A DNA stretch of 64,000 bases from NCBI RefSeq assembly GCF_028823635.1, contig NZ_JAPEHU010000001.1, positions 186,001-250,000 of the forward strand, given 5' to 3'. Under the pieces are notes generated by a model, which was not told the DNA's origin, searched no databases, and saw only the letters and a list, made by a program, of their open reading frames with translations. Position 1 is the first letter of the stretch. Each line of letters opens with the position of its first letter. The translations under genes and the position numbers were made by a program. Shown piece by piece: positions 2,577 through 63,666 of the stretch. Source of the stretch: Demequina sp. B12 (GTDB lineage: Bacteria; Actinomycetota; Actinomycetes; Actinomycetales; Demequinaceae).

Positions 2577-2637
2577 CGCATCGGCCCCTCCACCCACGCA
2601 TCGGCCCTCCCACCCCGCGGATCAGCCCCTCCCACCC
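2577..2637. repeat. Three imperfect 20-bp direct repeats
   Basis: Three units of roughly CGCATCGGCCCCTCCCACCC lie head to tail directly beside the hairpin repeat at 2638-2699. The first two each contain the GCATCGGCC nonamer (2578, 2598). No function can be assigned. Confidence 0.6.
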
Positions 2638-2699
2638 CGCCAAATGGCTCCATTTGGCTGTTATGGCTCGCTAAAACAACCAAATGGAGCCATTTGACG
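2638..2699. repeat. REP-like hairpin element, copy 1
   Basis: Arms 2641-2662 and 2675-2696 form a 22-bp inverted repeat with one mismatch around a 12-nt loop. The arm core is AAATGGCTCCATTTGG. It lies between the importer permease stop and mntR, both on the minus strand, and could act as a terminator or mRNA-stabilising element. Same family as 9640-9701 and 63611-63666, and a relative of 36201-36258 and 37425-37482. Confidence 0.85.
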
Positions 2700-9590: not shown

Positions 9591-9639
9591 GGCGCAAATC
9601 CTACCGGTGCCCCTTCCGCCCCCGTCCGCGCCCTCTTCC

Positions 9640-9701
9640 CGCCAAATGGCTCCATTTGCCTGTTATAGCTCCGTAAAACAGCCAAATGGAGCCATTTGGC
9701 G
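9640..9701. repeat. REP-like hairpin element, copy 2
   Basis: Inverted repeat of 25-bp arms (9640-9664 with 9677-9701) with one mismatch and a 12-nt loop; arm core CCAAATGGCTCCATTTG. It lies between the stop of the short-chain dehydrogenase (9754) and the start of pyrE (9590), both minus strand. Same family as copies 1 and 5. Confidence 0.85.
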
Positions 9702-9753
9702 GAGGGGCGGGGGGGTTTTGAGGGGCGCGGGTGGGTGAGGGGTGGGCGGCGCG

Positions 9754-25312: not shown

Positions 25313-28300
25313 CTATTCCTGACGTCCAGCTTCGGCAGAATCGCGGTCCATTGCTTCAACGTCCGAGCGTGCGCGCTGCGTGCCCGAGTAGAAAGAACTG
25401 AAGCGGTGACGCACAGCTTCCGCGTCGCGGTCTGCGCTCGGGGTGGCCGTAGGTTCGGCCGCAAGCGGCTTCACCTCGACCGGAGGAGCGTCCGCCGGGC
25501 GACGCTTCTGCAAGCCCGCCCGAGTCTTCTCCACCTTCGGCCGCTCCGCAGCCAACGAGGAAAGTTCTGAGAAGACAGCGCTCGTCATGTCCGGCTCATC
25601 ATCCGGCAGGGGCTCCGGCTGGATGATGGGCTGGTATCCCGAGGAAACCTCTGGCTCCGCGGCCTGGATTGCGCTCTGGCCGGCGGCTTCCCAGCCCGTA
25701 GCGCGTGCAAGGTCATCGGGGCTGAAGGATGCGCCTTCGTCCGCAGACTCCGACTGGCCCCACTGGTCACGAACGGCTTCCGGCTGGAAAGCCTGCGGAG
25801 CCGGTTCGAAGGACTGCGGCGCAGGTTCAAATGCCTGAGGGGCCGGTTCGAAGGACTGAGGAGCGGGTTGGAACGACTGCGGCGCAGGTTCGAACGCCTG
25901 AGGGGCCTCCGAGACGGGCTCCGGTGCAGACGGCACGAACGGTGCAGGCTCAGGCTCTGGTTGCGACGGCGTGGCCTGGGGGGCCCAGCCGCCGCTTGCG
26001 CTCGGCGCGGCAGCAGGTGCCTCATACGAGGGTGCGGCTTCCGCGCTTGGCATGAACGACGGACGCGCCGGGGGCATGCTGGGTTCGGGAGCCGATGCTG
26101 CGGAACGCGCAGACGAGTGCGGCGCCGCGGCGATCGGGTTGAACGACACACCGGCAGCCGACGCGGGGCTTTCGGCGACCTGTTCGACCTTGTCTTCGCG
26201 CGGGCCACGACCAAACAGGCGGGAGAAGAACCCTGGCTTGTGGTCCTCTTCCACTGCGCTTTGGATCAACGCGTCCAACTGAGGAGCATCGGCTGATGCC
26301 GCCGATACCGGCGAGCCGGTGGGGCTGTCCGTTGCTCCAGACCCCGTCCACGGCGTGGGTGCCAGCGGTGCCGCACCGAAGGGCGACTGCTGCTGAGGTT
26401 CAGGCTGGAAGGGAGCAGCAGGGGTAGCCGCGGCGGGGCTGTCGTAGCTGCCATAGTGCGGCGCCTGCGGCTCCTGTGCGGCTGGGGCCTGCTGTTCCCA
26501 CGGCTCGTAGGCCGGTTCGCGGTCCTCAATTTCAGGAGCGGACGATGCGGGCTGCGGCTCAGCCTCAGCGGCAAACACCGGCGCGAAGGGGTTCGTTGCA
26601 GGGCTGAATGCTGGTACTTCTTCAGCCTGCGGCTCGTCCTCCTCCAGCATCGGCACAACGAACGCGTCAGCGGGTGCCGCGGAGACTTCCGGCATGGCGT
26701 CAACCGATGAGGCTGCTTCCGGTGCCGAGTCCACCTCAGGAACTGAGTACGGTGCCGGGTCTACAGGGGCATCCGCGGCTGCAGGTTCCACTGCGCTCCA
26801 CGGTTCCTCCGCGGAGCGCACTGCGGGCGCTTCTGCCAGGAACGAAGGCATCTGGGGAGCGGCGTCCGGCTCCGCCGGGGTCACGGCCGCGGCAGCGGGT
26901 TCCTCGGCAACCACGGGTTCCTCGGCAACAGCGGGTTCTTCGTCCACCACGGCGGACTGCGCCGACAACGCGGACTGTGCCGAGTACACCGAGTCGAGCT
27001 TGGGCATGCGGAAGCCGGCAACTCCTGCTGCCGCGTCCGGCTCAAGTTCGTACGTGGGGGTGGGCTCGGGCTCGGGCACGCTTGCCGACGGCTCAGCAGC
27101 CTGGTCGGCGCTGTACTGGTCGGCGCTGTACAGGGCAGCGTCAACCGGCTCAATCCCAGCGTCGCGAGGTTCGGGCGCAGAAGCCGCCGACGCTGCGGAA
27201 CGGTCACGTCCACCAAAGAACGCGGCCGCAGTGAACGCTGCAGCGCCAGCCGCGGCAGTTCCCGTGATAGCGGCGTTACGTCCGGAGTTGTCCTGGGGCT
27301 CAGGCGTGGGCTGTGCGGGGGCACGGTCCTCGAACTCCGGAGCCGACGGTGCGAACCCGGGGATCTCGGGCGCGGACTGGACCTTGGGGCGACTCGGGAG
27401 CGGCGTGGCCGGGGTCTGGCCCTGGGCGTCTTCGTTGTCGCGACGCGAACGGAAGCCGCGGAACATCGACGAACGCTCTTCGAGCGATTCGGGGGAGATC
27501 TCGCTCGCTGCCACTGCCGGAGTAAAGCCACCGCCAGCCTCGGCGGCCAGCGCCGACAACTGTTCGTCGGTGGCGCGTGCCGGCAGACCGACCACGCTGT
27601 TGCGTTCGCGTTCCGCATCGGACACGCCAGGGGCGGTGCGGCGGCGTCGCGAAGGCAAACCGGCGGCGCTGTTGCCGTCCGTCAGTGCCTCGGGGTTGGT
27701 GGCCTCGGCTACGGGCGCTGCCGCAGCATCGGCTGCAATGAGGTCGTCGATCGAGTTCGCGGGCGCTTCTGCGGGTTCGTTGCGGGTCGGCAACGCGCCG
27801 CTACGAGCCGGGAGTCCGTCACCGCGTGCGGGCAGACCGTCGGACCGACCCGACAGGCTCGTGCCCTGTTCAACTGCCGCAGGAGCGTAGGCCGAGCCAC
27901 CCACAGGTGCCGTAGCCGGAGCCTGCTGCGACGGCACGTTCGAGGGAGCCGATGCTGCGACTGGGGGCATGTCGACGGGTGCGGCATCCGTGTCAGAGGC
28001 GAACAGAGTGACGGGCAGCAGCACGGTCGCGACAGTGCCTTCGCCTTCGCGGGATGCGATCGAAACGGTCGCGCCCACGCGGCGAGCAATACGACCGACC
28101 ACGAACAGGCCCAGGCGCTGCGCACCCAGGATTTCGGAGGCCGCAGTCGAGGCGACACGGGCGTTCGCGTCCGCGACCTCAGAGTCGGTCATGCCGATGC
28201 CGTCGTCAGCGATCTCAACGCGGTACGAGTCGCCCTGGCGGGTCGTGGTGACTGCCACACGGGAGCCCGGGTCGGAGAACACGGTGGCGTTCTCCAGCAG

Positions 28301-35018: not shown

Positions 35019-36167
35019 ATGGTCCTCCCCATCACGCTCGGGGCTTCCGCCCTAGTGATCGCCGTCGTGGCGCTCGTCCTTGCCATCACGGTGGTGCGAC
35101 GCGTCGGCAGCCGCGATCCGCTCTCGGTCCCGCTGTTTTGGCGTCGCTTGCTGCGCATCACTCCTATCTCCAGCGCCACCGCCGAACAAGCAGGCGCACT
35201 CCAGGGCCGCGAACGGCAAGTAGTCGCGTTCGTCGCCAACCCCTCCAAGACAGGCGTCACCGAACTGCGAGAGCGAGTCCTCCGCGCCTGCGCCGAGCGA
35301 TACCTCCCCGAACCTCTGTGGCTCCACACCACCATCGAAGACCCCGGCACCGGACAAGCACGCGCCGCCATCGAAGCAGGGGCCGATGTCGTGGTCGCCG
35401 TCGGTGGCGACGGCACCGTCCGTGCAGTCGCCGAGGCACTGGTGGGACGCGACGTGGCGATGGGAATCATGCCGATGGGCACCGGCAACCTGTTCGCCCG
35501 CAACCTCGACATCCCCCTCAACGACGTCGACGGACAACTCCGCGTCATCCTCGAAGGCACCAGCCAAGCAGTCGACGTGGGCTACATGGACGTCGAACGT
35601 GCCTTCCCCGGCCACGGCGAAGACGGCACCCACCTGTTCCTGGTGATGGCCGGCGCAGGCATCGACGCAGAGATGGTCGCAGGCGCCGATGCCACCCTCA
35701 AGAAGCGCGTGGGCTGGCTCGCGTACTTCTTTGCCGCCGTGGAACACCTGGGCGACAAGCGCATGACCGCCACCGTTGCGGTTGACGACGGCGACGAAGT
35801 GACAGCAGAAATGCGCACCGTGCTGCTCGCGAACGCTGGCCGGCTACCCGGCGGCCTGCAACTGATCCCCGACGCCTCCATCACGGACGCCCAGCTCGAT
35901 ATCGCCACTTTGGACGCCCGCGGCGGCATCGTGGGCTGGACCGAACTGTTGGGATCGGTTGTGGCCCAAGGTGCAGGAATCAAGCAGTCCGAACTGTTGA
36001 GTGCGTGGCGCACGTCTCGCATCGATCATGCGCGTGGGACGGCTGTCAGTATCGAGATGGAGTCGCCGCAGCGGGTTCAGGTTGATGGCGAGTCGTTGGG
36101 CCGGGCGATCCGGTTGCGAGGTCGTGTGAAGCCGGGTTCGCTTGTGGTGAGGATTCCGCGGGACTAG
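35019..36167 (+). CDS. Diacylglycerol kinase-family lipid kinase
   Basis: 382 aa. An N-terminal membrane helix (~3-25), then the DAGK catalytic domain: VVAVGGDGTVRAVAEAL (~125-141) with the nucleotide-binding GGDGT, and MPMGTGNLFARNLDIP (~151-166). The C-terminal domain follows to residue 382. It phosphorylates a diacylglycerol or related lipid at the membrane. Leaderless-type start, diverging from serS. Confidence 0.9.
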   Translation: MVLPITLGASALVIAVVALVLAITVVRRVGSRDPLSVPLFWRRLLRITPISSATAEQAGALQGRERQVVAFVANPSKTGVTELRERVLRACAERYLPEPLWLHTTIEDPGTGQARAAIEAGADVVVAVGGDGTVRAVAEALVGRDVAMGIMPMGTGNLFARNLDIPLNDVDGQLRVILEGTSQAVDVGYMDVERAFPGHGEDGTHLFLVMAGAGIDAEMVAGADATLKKRVGWLAYFFAAVEHLGDKRMTATVAVDDGDEVTAEMRTVLLANAGRLPGGLQLIPDASITDAQLDIATLDARGGIVGWTELLGSVVAQGAGIKQSELLSAWRTSRIDHARGTAVSIEMESPQRVQVDGESLGRAIRLRGRVKPGSLVVRIPRD

Positions 36168-36200
36168 AACGGTCTGGGGCGCCGTCCCGCGCCTGACTTC

Positions 36201-36258
36201 CCGCGAAATGGCTCCATCTCGCTGTTTTAGGGGCCTATAGCAGCCATTTTGTGCCACT
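36201..36258. repeat. Hairpin repeat, chimeric type, copy 3
   Basis: Left half AAATGGCTCCAT...CTGTT as in copies 1, 2 and 5; right half ends CATTTTGTGCCACT instead. It matches copy 4 (37425-37482) in inverted orientation at about 45 of 53 positions. It lies 78 bp beyond the stop of the DUF559 gene and between convergent genes. Confidence 0.8.
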
Positions 36259-36335
36259 AGAGGCGGTTGGGTCGTGCCCGCAGGCGGCCCAAGCAGAATG
36301 CCCGGCGACGCCGTCAGGAAGCGCAAGAACCGCTG

Positions 36336-37268
36336 TTAGCGCTCTGGAGCGAACCCCGCCATTCGGTGCGCGACCGCTTTGCGCACGTGCTGACGGCACC
36401 ACTCGGGCCGGCCCGTCACGTCTTCCCACGTGAGCCGGACCGTCACGTAACCCTCACCCGCGAGGAGAGCGTCACGCTCAATGTCGTGGCGGCGGTGCGC
36501 ATCGTCCGAGTGGAAGCGCGCACCATCAAACTCAACGGCGACCTTGGCTTGGCGCAAGAGAAGGTCGACCTTGAACGTTCGGCCGCCCGCACGAACCTTG
36601 CCCTGCATCTCCCACTCCAGCCACTCATCGCCGGTGAAGACCTCGGTCATTGCGCGATACTCCAACATCGACGTCACGCCGCGGGTTGCGAGCGCACACG
36701 CCTCCTCAAGCGCCGCGCGCTGAGGCAACCTGGGGTGATGCGCAGATCGACGCAGCACGTCCTGGGGGAACGCGATCCCTGACCTGAATGCGTCGAACAC
36801 GAAGCCCATACGTTCCCGATCAGTCGTCCATCGCCACGCGAGAATGAGGGCATCCACGCGGTTGACCACGCGCACGCCGTCAATCACTGTGACGTCCATG
36901 GGTACGTCGGTTCGGCGGACGGTGAGCACAGCGGGTGCGGGAGTGCGCGTACCGCGCGGCACCACAGCATGGATCACCGGTGGAGACTCATCGCGCCAAC
37001 CCGCGCACCACAATGCGGCGCGGCCCGCGACGGCACCGGTGGAGGGCAGCCACTGTGCAGCGACGGAGAGCTTGCACGGCACGGAAGTGGCGGCGTCGCG
37101 GTGCGCATAGAGGCCGGGGCCAACCCTCACCACATCTCCGAACCGCAAAGCCTCCGTCAACGTGGCGCTTGACCATCGCTCTTCTATTTCGCGCCGGTGG
37201 TGGGCGAGGCGAGACTCGGCTAGTGCAGCGGCGAGCGAGAACACGGCGAACGTCGAGCGTGGTGACAT
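36336..37268 (-). CDS. DUF559 (Vsr-like) endonuclease-domain protein
   Basis: 310 aa. An AbiEi-like N-terminal part (DVVRVGPGLYAHRDA, ~43-57) is followed by a middle region (PAVLTVRRTDVPMDVTVIDGVRVV). The C-terminal DUF559 domain holds a PD-(D/E)xK-type core: FKVDLLLRQAKVAVEFDG (~234-251), HSDDAHRRHDIERDALLAGEGY and VRLTWEDV. Such proteins are common in Actinobacteria and have no settled role; repair, defence and selfish-element functions are all possible. TAACGT (37276-37281) lies 7 nt before the ATG. Inverted hairpin repeats flank the gene. Confidence 0.8.
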   Translation of the reverse strand: MSPRSTFAVFSLAAALAESRLAHHRREIEERWSSATLTEALRFGDVVRVGPGLYAHRDAATSVPCKLSVAAQWLPSTGAVAGRAALWCAGWRDESPPVIHAVVPRGTRTPAPAVLTVRRTDVPMDVTVIDGVRVVNRVDALILAWRWTTDRERMGFVFDAFRSGIAFPQDVLRRSAHHPRLPQRAALEEACALATRGVTSMLEYRAMTEVFTGDEWLEWEMQGKVRAGGRTFKVDLLLRQAKVAVEFDGARFHSDDAHRRHDIERDALLAGEGYVTVRLTWEDVTGRPEWCRQHVRKAVAHRMAGFAPER

Positions 37269-37424
37269 GCGGTCGACGTTAGGTTGGCCGCGCTACGCAA
37301 CCCCACCGCAACCGACGGCCCTGGGGACGCCGGCCCCATGCATCGGTCTTGGGGACAACGCAGAGCCGTCGAAACCGGCGCGTCGCAAGCCCAGCATCGG
37401 CCCCACGGCCCCACGGCCGAGCGA

Positions 37425-37482
37425 AGTGGCACAAAATGCCTGTTATACGTACCTAAAACAGCGAAATGGAGCCATTTGGCGG
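37425..37482. repeat. Hairpin repeat, chimeric type, copy 4
   Basis: Begins AGTGGCACAAAATG, passes the shared centre CTGTT...AACAG, and ends AAATGGAGCCATTTGGCGG. It is the inverted partner of copy 3 and lies 157 bp upstream of the DUF559 start, ending 8 bp before the pheA stop. Confidence 0.8.
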
Positions 37483-37490
37483 GAAGGTGG

Positions 37491-38441
37491 CTAGTGGTTG
37501 CCCTTGCGCAGCGAATCCACCCAGGAATGCGCCTGATCGAAGGCTTCCTCGCCGGTGCCGACGTCTACGGGGTTCACCTCGGAGTCGGCCTTGGGATAGG
37601 ACCCCAGGAAGCGCACCACGGGACACGTGCGCTTCAACCCCACGAGCGCTTCAGCAACGCGTGCTTCGCCCACATGCCCCAGCACGTCAATGGAGAACGA
37701 GTACTCGCCGGGACGTTCCCCAATGGGACGCGACTCGATGCGGGACAGGTTGACGCCACGAACGGAGAACTGTTCCAGCATCCGGAGTAGAGCACCGGCC
37801 TGGTCGGTGGGCAGGTGGACCACGATGGTGGTTTTGTCTGAGCCGGTGGGTTCGCCAATGGCGCGGGGCCGGCCCACCTTGACGAAGCGGGTGGCTGCGG
37901 AGACGTTGTCGGCGACGCGGTCGGCAAGCACGGTGAGGCCAGTGGCGGCGCCGGTGCCGGGTGGGGCCAGGGCTGCGTTGAAGCCCAGGTCGTCGAGCGC
38001 CAGTGACTCGTTTGCGAGGTCACGTGCTGCGGCGGCGTTGGAGGACGATGCGACGAAAGCGACATCCGGCAGGGTCGAGTTTGCCCAGCGGCGCACTTGT
38101 GCCCAGGCGTGCGAGTGGGCGGAGACGGCGGTGATGTCTGCCAGTTCGGTGCCGGGGCGGACCAACAACTCAAAAGCAATGGGCAGGACCGTCTCGCCCA
38201 GGATGACGAGCGGCTCGCCCGTCGCAAGGGTGTCCAAAGTAGCGGTGACGCCACCTTCCACGGTGTTTTCGATCGCGACCACGGCGTAGTCGACTTCTCC
38301 GGCGCGCAGCGCACCCAAGGCGGTGACGACGTCAACGCAGGGAACGTACTCGGCTTCCTGCGGGCTGGCCATGGTGCGCAGTGCAGCTTCGGTGAAGGTG
38401 CCGGCGGGGCCAAGGTAGGCGTACCGGGGAAGTGCAGTCAC
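37491..38441 (-). CDS. pheA: Prephenate dehydratase
   Basis: 316 aa, monofunctional type: catalytic domain (~5-190) starting YLGPAGTFTEAAL with the conserved TRF triplet in SAATRFVKV (~183-191), then a regulatory ACT domain (~205-290; LSRIESRPIGERPGEYSF) that binds phenylalanine. It makes phenylpyruvate from prephenate. The start is GTG, with TAAGGA 8-13 nt upstream that could serve as ribosome site or -10. The next gene's start region is 12 bp away. Confidence 0.95.
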   Translation of the reverse strand: MTALPRYAYLGPAGTFTEAALRTMASPQEAEYVPCVDVVTALGALRAGEVDYAVVAIENTVEGGVTATLDTLATGEPLVILGETVLPIAFELLVRPGTELADITAVSAHSHAWAQVRRWANSTLPDVAFVASSSNAAAARDLANESLALDDLGFNAALAPPGTGAATGLTVLADRVADNVSAATRFVKVGRPRAIGEPTGSDKTTIVVHLPTDQAGALLRMLEQFSVRGVNLSRIESRPIGERPGEYSFSIDVLGHVGEARVAEALVGLKRTCPVVRFLGSYPKADSEVNPVDVGTGEEAFDQAHSWVDSLRKGNH

Positions 38442-41252: not shown

Positions 41253-44200
41253 TTAGAACTCCCTGCGCCTGGCGATCAGGATCAGCGCCCCGCCAAGTCC
41301 GAGTGTCAACAACGCCATCATCAGGATCCACCATCCCTGGTAGCCGGTGAGGGGCAGCACTCCCGTGGCGTCTTCGTCGAACTGGTTGTAGGCCGTGACT
41401 GTCACGGTGGCATCGGCGCCGATGGTCACGGAGGCTTCCACGTCTCCGTCCCCTGCGGGCACCAGCCGGGTGTCGTCTGCACCACCGTTGTCCGTCTCCG
41501 TGACGATGCAGACGGAGCCGGCTGCGATGCCGTCAATGGTGGCAGTCAACGGTGCGCCGCCGCCCAACACCACGGTGCCGCTGTAGGTCGTGACGGGGTC
41601 AACGTCCGGACGTTCCCACGTGCACTCGATCGTGAACGCGAAGGGCTCGGTGGCGTCTTCTGCACCGGCGCCCACGATTTCCTTCACGAGTTCAAGCGAA
41701 CCCACGGCGAACACGTTCAGCACCTCAGCGCTGTTGGTGTCTCCAGGCGTGAGCACTAGGTCCGCTTGAGCGCCGTCCGTCACTGTGGGCTCGGCATCGG
41801 CCGTCACCACGGTCACCGTCGTTGACGCTGCACCACCGTTGTAGAGCTCGGTGACGGTACAGGAGGAGTTCGCGGGCAGGTTCTCGAACACGGCTGTTTC
41901 ACCGTTGTCGAGTGCCGCGATCATGGGCGCCAGTGGGCCGTAGCCGTCCGCATAGACGGGATGCTCATTCACGCCTCCCTCGTCGTACACGCACTGCACA
42001 GCGATCCAGTAGGGGCCAAGGTCGGGCACGTTGCCTTCGGCATCCATGACGGACTCGTCCACGGTCTTGGTCACTTCGAGCGAAGCGAAAGCTTCGAAGA
42101 AGTTCGTGACGGTGACCGCAGCGGCCTCGGCTTCCTCGCCATCGAGAACCTGAACCGTGGCGGAACTGTCGCCCGGCTCACCTGGCGTGTACGTCACGGT
42201 GTCAGCCCCAGCATCGTCCGTCTCCGTCACCACGCAGGTGGACGGCGCCAGGATGTTCGTCACTGTCGCTTCGAGCGGCTGATCTCCGCCGAGCGTCAGA
42301 TCACCGGTGTAGGACGTGATGCCGAACTCATCCGAGGTGCACTCGACGTGAACGATGAACGGTCCATCGCCACGTTCAGCAGCGCCATCACCAGTGACTT
42401 CCTTGGTGACCACCAACGCTCCGATGGGGTACGTGTTGGTGAACGTCACTCGGTTCGTGGTGAAGATTCCGGTCTCATTGAGGCCGATGCTGGTAGCGGT
42501 TCCCGTGGACGTTTCTGCGGTTTCTCCGGCAGGATGCACGGTCACGGTGCTCTCGCTGGCACTTGCGGTGTCAGTCTCCGTGACATCGCAGACGGTGCCG
42601 GTCGGCAGGTCCGTCAGGGTCTCGCTTTCGCCATGCATGAGGTCGAACATCATGGGCGTGCCGGGGTCGTTGGAGGCGAACTCGGCGGCGAAGACCTCCC
42701 GCTCGTATGGGGTGCCTTCGGCGTAGGTACACACCACTTCGATGGCGAACGGACCGACGTCCGGAATGTCGCCCGCCTCGTTGAGGATGGGGCCATCGAC
42801 GATCTTGTCGACCACCAGCTCCGTGGGCACTTCGTAGCGGTTGTCGACCGCGATCTGGGCCACGGGTGTGTCGGTGCCGTCGTCCTCAATGGTGACCACA
42901 CCAATGGAGGTGTCGCCGTCTTGAGCGGGGTCGAAGACCCACTGGTCAGGCCCGCCTTCGTCTGGCTGTTCCTCCGTGAGTACACATTCAGAGCCCACGA
43001 GGATTCCACCAACTGTGGTGGTCTCGCCGCCAACGACGGTGACCGTGTCATCGAAGGTCACCACGATGTGGTCGGGGTCGTCGGGGTCGACCGCTTCGCA
43101 GTACACCGCGACCTGGTACTCCTCACCCACGTGCGCATCGGCTCCAGGACCACTGAGAGTCTTGGAGATCTCCAACTCACCGGAGGCGAACTGGTTGATG
43201 AACTCGATGAAGTTCGTGGGTTCGGGGGCTTCTTCCGTCCCTGCGTTCGGGGTCAGCGTCAGCAACTCGTCCATGTAGATGAGTTCGCCGTCGGCTTCCT
43301 CCACGACAAACCCAAAGTCGGTGTCGTTCTCCCACACAATGCCCACGCGTGATGCGCCATGTTCGGGGTACTCACCCGCGATGCAGGTCGCGCCTGCAGG
43401 CAGGTCATCGAGCACCACCGACTCGAGGTGCTCGAGCGACACCGTCATGATCATCGGATACCCATCCAACGGGACCCAGTCGTCCGTGTTGGTAGCCGTG
43501 ACGTACTCGTCGCGGTACACACAGGCCACGCCGATGAGGAACTCTCCAGCCTCACCGGGATCCACTCCGGAGCCACCGTCGTCACCGACTACAACCTTGC
43601 CGACCTCAAGCGACGCCAAACGGTAGACGTTGGTGAGCTCGATCGACACTTCCTCGCTGTCGCCGAACGGCACCACCACCTCGTCAGGGTCGATCGTGGT
43701 GTCCCACTGGCCGTAGTCGCTCTCTTCGAGCGTGCAGGTGGCACCCGTGGGCAGCGTGTCCACCACGGTCGCGGGGTCACCGGCAGTCAGCGTGTACTCG
43801 TCACGGATAACTTCCACCGTCTCACCATCGATGTCGACGGTGCACACCAACTCCACGGTGTAGTCGTCGAGCGCATACTCGTCTGCACCATCACCATCGA
43901 GCGCCTTGGAGATGGCGATCGAGCCGGTCGCGAGCGCCACGCCCACCTTCACGCCTTCAGTTGCGGCAACCTGAGTCCCTGTTTCCGTTACCGCAGACAC
44001 GGCCACCGAGTTGTAGGCGATCGAGTCTTCGGAGGGAGGGCGCACGCCCGGGGTCATGGTCTCCACGTCGACCGTGAGGTACTCGCGCGGCAGCAGCGGG
44101 GTGTCGTCGGGGAAGGTCGCGACGTACATGATGCCGGTCACGTCTGCCAGGTCACCTGTGTAGGTGTCCCAGTCCAGCCATGCACCGCCACAGTCGCCAC

Positions 44201-54909: not shown

Positions 54910-55748
54910 CCGCACGTATTGCCATTGTCACGACTGTGGAACTCGCCGAACCGGACATGGATGAGGTGCTGCTGTTGCCGCTCTTGCCGGAGGCGGAGCG
55001 GGTCGCATGGGATGACCCGAACGTGGACTGGTCTGCGTACGAGGTTGCGGTGTTGCGCACCACGTGGAACTACACCGAGCACCTTCCGGAGTTCTTGGCG
55101 TGGGCGGACCGCGTGAGCGCGGTGACCCGCTTGGTGAACCCGTTGTCGGTGCTGACGTGGAACACGGACAAGCGCTACCTGGCGGACCTGGAAGCTCGCG
55201 GACTGCCGGTGGTGCCCACGGTGTTTGTGGCACCGGGGGAGTCGGTTCCGGCCGATGCTCTGCACGGTTCCGTGGTCGTGAAGCCTTCCGTAGGTGCGGG
55301 GTCCGCGGGGGCTGCGCTTTTCCATGACGATGCGGCGGGGGCGTTGGCGCATGCGCAGGCGCTCCACGCTGCGGACAAGACAGTCATGATTCAGCCGTAC
55401 CTGGAGCAGGTCGACACGGTAGGCGAGACGGCCATGGCGTACCTGGGCGGACAGTTTTCGCATGCGGCACGGAAGGCCGCGATCTTGTCGAAGGAGTTGT
55501 CGAACTCGACGGGCCTGTATGCGGATGAGGAGATCTCGGCGTATAGCCCGTCGGTGGCGGAGCGGGAGTTGGCGGACCGTGCGGTCGCGACGTTGACCGG
55601 CGTTGCATATGCGCGGGTCGATTTGCTGCCCACCGACGATGGCCCGGTGATTCTGGAGTTGGAACTCGCGGAACCGAGCCTGTTTTTGCATGTCTCCGAG
55701 GGCGCACCGGAGCGGGCTGCCGCCGCTTTCCGCGCCTTGTTGCCATAG
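54906..55748 (+). CDS. ATP-grasp (RimK-like) ligase
   Basis: 280 aa. N-terminal part MTARIAIVTTVE...LRTTWNYTEHLPEFLAW, then an ATP-grasp fold: VVVKPSVGAGSAGAALF (~122-138), MIQPYLEQVDTVGETAMAYLGG (~162-183) and DDGPVILELELAEPSLFLH (~246-264), where the second E binds Mg. Substrates unknown; related enzymes join an acid to an amine. TAGCCT (54894-54899) ends 6 nt before the ATG, and the gene overlaps the VanZ-RDD stop by 4 bp. Confidence 0.82.
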   Translation: MTARIAIVTTVELAEPDMDEVLLLPLLPEAERVAWDDPNVDWSAYEVAVLRTTWNYTEHLPEFLAWADRVSAVTRLVNPLSVLTWNTDKRYLADLEARGLPVVPTVFVAPGESVPADALHGSVVVKPSVGAGSAGAALFHDDAAGALAHAQALHAADKTVMIQPYLEQVDTVGETAMAYLGGQFSHAARKAAILSKELSNSTGLYADEEISAYSPSVAERELADRAVATLTGVAYARVDLLPTDDGPVILELELAEPSLFLHVSEGAPERAAAAFRALLP

Positions 55749-63550: not shown

Positions 63551-63610
63551 CCCCACCTCCCCGCGCGTCTCCGGTGCTTCCCCGGCGCACCCCACGCCGC
63601 ACCTCCCCGC

Positions 63611-63666
63611 CAAATGGCTCCATTTGGTTGTTTTAGTGCGCTAAGACAACCAAATGGAGCCATTTG
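63611..63666. repeat. REP-like hairpin element, copy 5
   Basis: Arms 63611-63632 and 63645-63666 match with one G-T wobble, and the inner TTAG/CTAA pairs extend the stem to about 26 bp around a TGCG tetraloop. It is the most perfect hairpin of the family. It lies 60 bp after the acetyltransferase stop. Confidence 0.88.

Follow-up and report, generated by a model that had tools for sequence, protein, structure and literature searches.

An AbiEi-Vsr nuclease gene of Demequina bracketed by inverted copies of a private palindrome: a candidate REP/RAYT-like system with an enzyme of another family

The stretch of 64,000 nucleotides analysed here (the window) corresponds to C10:186001-250000 of the 2.33-Mb study genome (G000). 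It carries a nuclease gene framed by two repeats, in the interval between the genes for a YegS/DAGK-type lipid kinase and prephenate dehydratase (pheA; Table 1). The repeats are inverted relative to each other, 62 nt long and 89% complementary, and they bracket the nuclease gene alone, lying 77 bp past its stop codon and about 156 bp ahead of its start codon. Chance pairing is excluded because the partner copy was retrieved with E = 5e-17 in a whole-genome search. The initial annotation had described a DUF559 gene alone between matching inverted repeats, the unit being placed between two housekeeping genes, and both statements are borne out. In the repeat past the gene the left arm is the outer one and the right, inner arm (GTGCCACT) is divergent; the outer arm of the repeat ahead of the gene directly adjoins the pheA stop codon. 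One arm of the gene-flanking copies has diverged. Their single-strand folds are weak (z of -0.5 and -0.6) while those of the three other copies in the window are strong (z from -7.6 to -12.2), so that the hairpin nature first attributed to the whole family is pronounced in these three copies but not in the two at the gene. A terminator scan of positions 36000-37700 identified no stem-loop with a T-run, and the Rfam search matched tRNAs alone and no known RNA family. Neither a toxin partner nor a defence cluster adjoins the nuclease gene, whose neighbours are the lipid kinase gene and pheA.

Table 1. Coordinates of the nuclease locus and of the other repeat copies in the window.
Feature	Position	Strand	Remarks
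Left neighbour, YegS/DAGK-type lipid kinase gene	35019..36167	+	directly convergent with pheA where relatives lack the nuclease gene
Flanking repeat past the 3' end of the nuclease gene	36197..36258	+	between the convergent lipid kinase and nuclease genes
Nuclease gene, 310 aa	36336..37268	-	N-terminal AbiEi-like DNA-binding half and C-terminal Vsr/DUF559/MTES_1575 nuclease domain
Vsr-like nuclease domain, residues 226-300	36369..36593	-	D..ExD..H active-site residues
AbiEi-like part, about residues 15-180	36729..37226	-	winged helix and second domain; PADLOC, Foldseek
Flanking repeat ahead of the nuclease start	37425..37486	-	inverted copy of 36197..36258
Right neighbour, prephenate dehydratase gene (pheA)	37491..38441	-	domain search and synteny
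Solo symmetric copy	2636..2699		single-strand fold z -7.6
Solo symmetric copy	9635..9702		single-strand fold z -9.9
Solo symmetric copy	63600..63666		single-strand fold z -12.2; 3' of a plus-strand gene

Three further features of the window are recorded here. Six overlapping register matches of a 21-bp tandem repeat at 25759-25926 probably correspond to a repetitive protein segment. Four 43-nt direct repeats spaced by about 360 bp (41479-42601) suggest a protein with repeated domains. The 99-nt tRNA-Thr called by ARAGORN at 55191-55289 was unconfirmed by Rfam and is likely a false call.

The two halves of the nuclease protein were assigned by domain and structure searches. Pfam models MTES_1575 (2e-8) and DUF559 (1.4e-5) both match its C-terminal part, and the AbiEi models of PADLOC match its N-terminal part (4e-10). 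The AlphaFold model (mean pLDDT 95) gave as best Foldseek match the AbiEi antitoxin 6y8q (E 1e-4); it also matches the homing endonuclease I-Bth0305I (3r3p; TMt 0.77) and, more weakly, E. coli Vsr. The AbiEi-like part is probably the one that binds the palindrome. The active site is intact: residues D235, E246, D248, H253, R265, E203, G197 and G273 are invariant in an alignment of 90 homologues, most of them about 30% identical to the window protein, and the nuclease is therefore under strong selection. No known transposase domain was found in the protein, its matches being to DUF559/MTES_1575 and AbiEi only, and the HUH/Y1 domain (PF01797) is likewise absent from it.

The history of the gene was followed by a synteny comparison of 44 Demequina genomes (G022 is D. 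sediminicola). Of the 37 species in which both neighbours could be placed on the tree, 29 have no nuclease gene at the lipid kinase/pheA junction, where the gap is usually 19-250 bp; empty sites of this kind had been predicted and are present in about 29 relatives. Nine genomes have the junction occupied by the nuclease gene (G000, G001, G007, G011, G022, G028, G031, G032, G041); in two of them, G032 and G011, the gene has the opposite orientation between these neighbours. All nine junction genes belong to one clade (97% support). Occupancy on the tree of the lipid kinase and pheA requires at least four changes, and the junction is empty inside an occupied clade in G005 and in the pair G026/G030. 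A single clade that has stayed at this junction, been lost in places and been inverted once is therefore the mark of an old resident rather than of a recent arrival, and the own mobility of the gene must consequently be low or belong to the past. The behaviour of the unit is that of an old gene retained by vertical descent rather than of an active jumping gene. The inversion can be produced by homologous recombination between the repeats. Neither a recent jump nor a target duplication was seen, the orthologous and the empty junctions being too diverged to define a duplication, and no second copy of the nuclease gene with the same ends is found in the study genome. Wherever the orthologous gene is full-length (six comparisons), the nuclease is less conserved than both of its neighbours. 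Large junction gaps without the nuclease gene occur in G021, G029 and G043 (L153, L161, L172), which have there an MFS-like transporter gene, joined in G021 by an FMN-reductase-like gene.

Homologous nuclease loci were inspected for flanking inverted repeats, counted at a score of 35 or more. Such a pair is found at 54 of the 91 nuclease loci of the 44 Demequina genomes and, among 314 control genes, at 12 (Fisher 8e-31). Of these 12 control positives, five represent the nuclease gene itself at other loci and four come from regions that were fetched for holding repeats. Typically, one copy is located 60-150 bp 5' of the start codon and the other 0-30 bp past the stop codon. A score of 35 or more is also reached in direct orientation at 26 of the 91 loci, as symmetric repeats score in both orientations, and the inverted orientation is therefore meaningful for asymmetric copies only. 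The 37 Demequina loci without a detectable pair may reflect decay, a longer distance or real absence. Outside Demequina, flanking inverted repeats are found at 19 of 44 nuclease loci from Actinomycetota, 25 having no detectable pair, and shuffled sequences reached the threshold at three of the 44 (20 shuffles each). A private palindrome pair is thus present at more than half of the 135 related genes sampled across Actinomycetota. An unusual case is locus L314 of a distant actinobacterium, where the nuclease flanks are inverted with a score of 298, extend far beyond the usual 60 bp and include an internally repeated unit, GGTTCCGGCGAGTGGCTCCGGGT.

Each nuclease gene lineage has its own private repeat. 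At the occupied junctions the repeat sequence is alike within a locus and differs between species (partial in G041 and G011); in the sister genomes G028 and G031 the within-locus scores are 115 and 111 while the repeats of one do not align with those of the other (score 17). Similarity between repeats of different loci is found in none of the 1184 pairs whose proteins are below 45% identity and in all six pairs at 80% identity or more. The expectation that DUF559 homologues are flanked by paired inverted copies was therefore right as to the pairs and wrong as to this particular hairpin. Homologues generally lacking these repeats, which the initial annotation would have taken as evidence against its proposal, are literally what was found, but this was the wrong test since the homologues carry their own, different pairs.

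The repeat family occupies about 38 places in the study genome (all repeat copy numbers given here are approximate or lower bounds). They comprise 24 symmetric palindromes and 14 chimeric copies with the GTGCCACT-type arm. The chimeric subtype, which the initial annotation had not seen elsewhere in the window, is confined to the nuclease gene there but not in the genome, where 12 of the 14 chimeric copies lie away from that gene, some of them around unrelated genes. Copies are preferentially located between convergent genes (21/37 versus 29/137 background gaps; P = 6e-5) and avoid divergent promoter gaps (1/37 versus 38/137; P = 6e-4). The same repeat type is found in at least about 20 copies each in G007 and G022, which are with G000 the sole holders of this nuclease sub-clade among the 44 genomes, and yields 0-4 matches in each of the other 41. 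Dispersed families of their own, matching their own nuclease genes, are found in G018 (about 22 copies), G032 (22), G028 (20) and G004 (12). Eight of the 20 repeat sites of G007 are common to G000, and the site at 63600..63666 in the window is occupied in G007 too; for the G007 sites absent from G000, no repeat is present at those orthologous G000 junctions that could be checked. The sites of solo copies differ between the two genomes and hence turn over. No Y1 (RAYT) transposase was found in six genomes rich in repeats, the control being positive. The notion that the repeats travel with the gene is supported as to their co-distribution and not as to literal movement, since the junction genes form a single clade kept in place, apart from losses and an inversion.

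Nearby repeats are oriented towards each other in 13 of 14 pairs and never outward (P = 1.6e-7; hand count among the matches listed). Some of these inward pairs form REPIN-like doublets with a spacing of about 90-110 bp (L239, L240) and others enclose accessory genes (GNAT acetyltransferase, SDR, RibD_C reductase). In the study genome, inward chimeric pairs surround a RibD_C-like reductase gene (L040:8558-9923), a gene for an NAD(P)-binding protein (L043:4036-4984) and a pst-type phosphate transport operon (L054:4041-8507), all three between convergent outer neighbours; the enclosed genes are possibly captured cargo. Cassette-like arrangements, in which an inward pair of the local repeat surrounds a single accessory gene, are also observed in G018 and G032 (L233, L234, L238; a 238-aa protein of unknown function, a GNAT acetyltransferase and an SDR). 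In G004 the repeats are arranged in tandem, the period being about 41 bp, and the arrays face each other (L241:2778-2998, L242:1990-2336). It is an attractive idea that the chimeric pairs arose when a cassette was inserted into a symmetric palindrome, as the outer genes are convergent at all four of them. Against it, some chimeric copies have no partner, and no orthologous site was found to hold a symmetric palindrome without the insert.

We consider it probable that the gene and its two repeats form the core of a system that resembles REP/RAYT but uses an unrelated enzyme, and in which the nuclease recognises its cognate palindromes and either maintains or spreads them. From domain content and repeat distribution we infer binding and cleavage of the palindrome, and its nuclease-driven spread or mobilisation. 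AbiEi proteins bind paired 23-bp inverted repeats separated by 3 or 13 bp (PMC7319586). The simplest model is that reading of the palindrome falls to the AbiEi-like half and nicking to the Vsr-like half, because these repeat lengths and spacings resemble the arms and loops found here. For the AbiEi-like half, the two arms of the protein's own palindrome would serve as inverted half-sites of an operator, and the DNA would be nicked or cut there by the Vsr-like half. Such activity would keep the two flanking copies alike, and would have seeded the solo copies and the inward pairs, some around other genes and mostly at gene 3' ends. Duplex, operator-like recognition is favoured over hairpin recognition for the window's two gene-flanking copies because both fold weakly as single strands; their recognition as single-stranded hairpins is doubtful.

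The palindromes might instead be plain AbiEi-type operators, the flanking copies serving autoregulation and the solo copies being regulon or roadblock sites, with no nuclease-driven movement of DNA. AbiEi relatives do autoregulate through paired 23-bp inverted repeats (PMC7319586), and in paired loci one copy is found 5' of the start codon. However, the second copy lies directly past the stop codon and the solo copies are at 3' ends, only one of 37 being in a divergent promoter gap. Regulation would also leave unexplained the invariant nuclease site, the inward pairing and the per-species repeat populations with their site turnover, and we regard this explanation as unlikely. A role of the protein in defence or conflict, as a nuclease that cuts foreign DNA and for which the palindromes are self-recognition or control sites, is quite improbable: AbiEi-like and Vsr-like domains are both known in defence proteins, but dispersed palindromes are not predicted and the gene has no adjoining toxin partner or defence cluster.

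The preference for convergent gaps would suit an inbred family of bidirectional terminators, the nuclease gene having merely landed in one such gap. The locus has no U-tract terminator, each nuclease lineage has repeats of its own that hardly occur in genomes lacking the gene, and pairs are rare at control genes; we give this scenario very little credence. Equally slight is the chance that the unit is a conventional cut-and-paste transposon with terminal inverted repeats. In its favour are the inverted ends on either side, the existence of empty sites and the reversed gene between the same neighbours (G032, G011), but the junction genes are one orthologous clade at one site, no second same-ended copy exists in the genome, a known transposase domain is lacking and no target duplication was seen between the diverged junctions, while the inversion is explicable by recombination between the repeats.

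The REP/RAYT-like reading we prefer rests on a comparison with systems in which inverted palindromes flank the gene, protein and palindrome co-evolve, the gene evolves fast and palindrome copy number is tied to its presence (PMC2817692). RAYTs and REPINs are vertically inherited, the REPINs being replicated inverted pairs (PMC8049555). The Demequina loci share with them the single gene between two inverted palindromes, cognate copies dispersed between genes, inward pairs, protein-palindrome co-evolution, a gene evolving faster than its neighbours and a copy number that follows gene presence. The REP/RAYT resemblance pointed out in the initial annotation is therefore well supported in anatomy, co-evolution and co-distribution. 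The enzyme differs, as it is an AbiEi-Vsr nuclease without HUH/Y1 domain; the palindromes are about 55-70 bp long versus 20-40 bp in REP, and the hosts are Actinomycetota, the REP/RAYT arrangement having been described by Nunvar et al. (2010) in gammaproteobacteria only. The system is not a member of REP/RAYT because the defining Y1/HUH enzyme was looked for and is absent.

Nor does it belong among the AbiE toxin-antitoxin pairs, known insertion sequences or intron-borne homing endonucleases. AbiEi antitoxins of type IV AbiE systems have in common with the protein the N-terminal fold and, probably, the binding of paired inverted repeats of about 23 bp; here this fold is fused to a nuclease, no AbiEii (DUF1814) toxin gene adjoins it, and the repeats lie on both sides of the gene and dispersed. 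The C-terminal catalytic fold and its conserved D/E/H residues are those of the EDxHD homing endonuclease I-Bth0305I, E. coli Vsr and the MTES_1575 REase, the prototype of the last being a giant conflict protein with many domains (PMC3710099); unlike homing endonuclease genes borne by introns, the gene is intergenic and has its own repeats. The association of nuclease and repeats was not found described in the open-licence literature on DUF559/AbiEi, MTES_1575, REP in Actinobacteria and EDxHD. Within that literature we rate the system as new in kind, working like REP/RAYT without belonging to it. More tentatively, as a serious possibility rather than a probable one, the AbiEi-Vsr nucleases of Actinomycetota may represent a second, independently evolved palindrome-mobilising class. 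A private extragenic palindrome would be recognised and copied or moved, alone, in inward pairs or with captured genes, and would persist vertically with its gene as RAYTs and REPINs do.

With these observations, a large actinobacterial family annotated only as DUF559 or endonuclease-domain proteins gains a probable DNA partner and hence an activity that can be tested. Since these genes are flanked on either side by what is probably their recognition sequence, the cognate target of a member can be read from its genome. The observations also suggest that an arrangement described for one enzyme class, that of REP/RAYT, evolved a second time around an unrelated nuclease.
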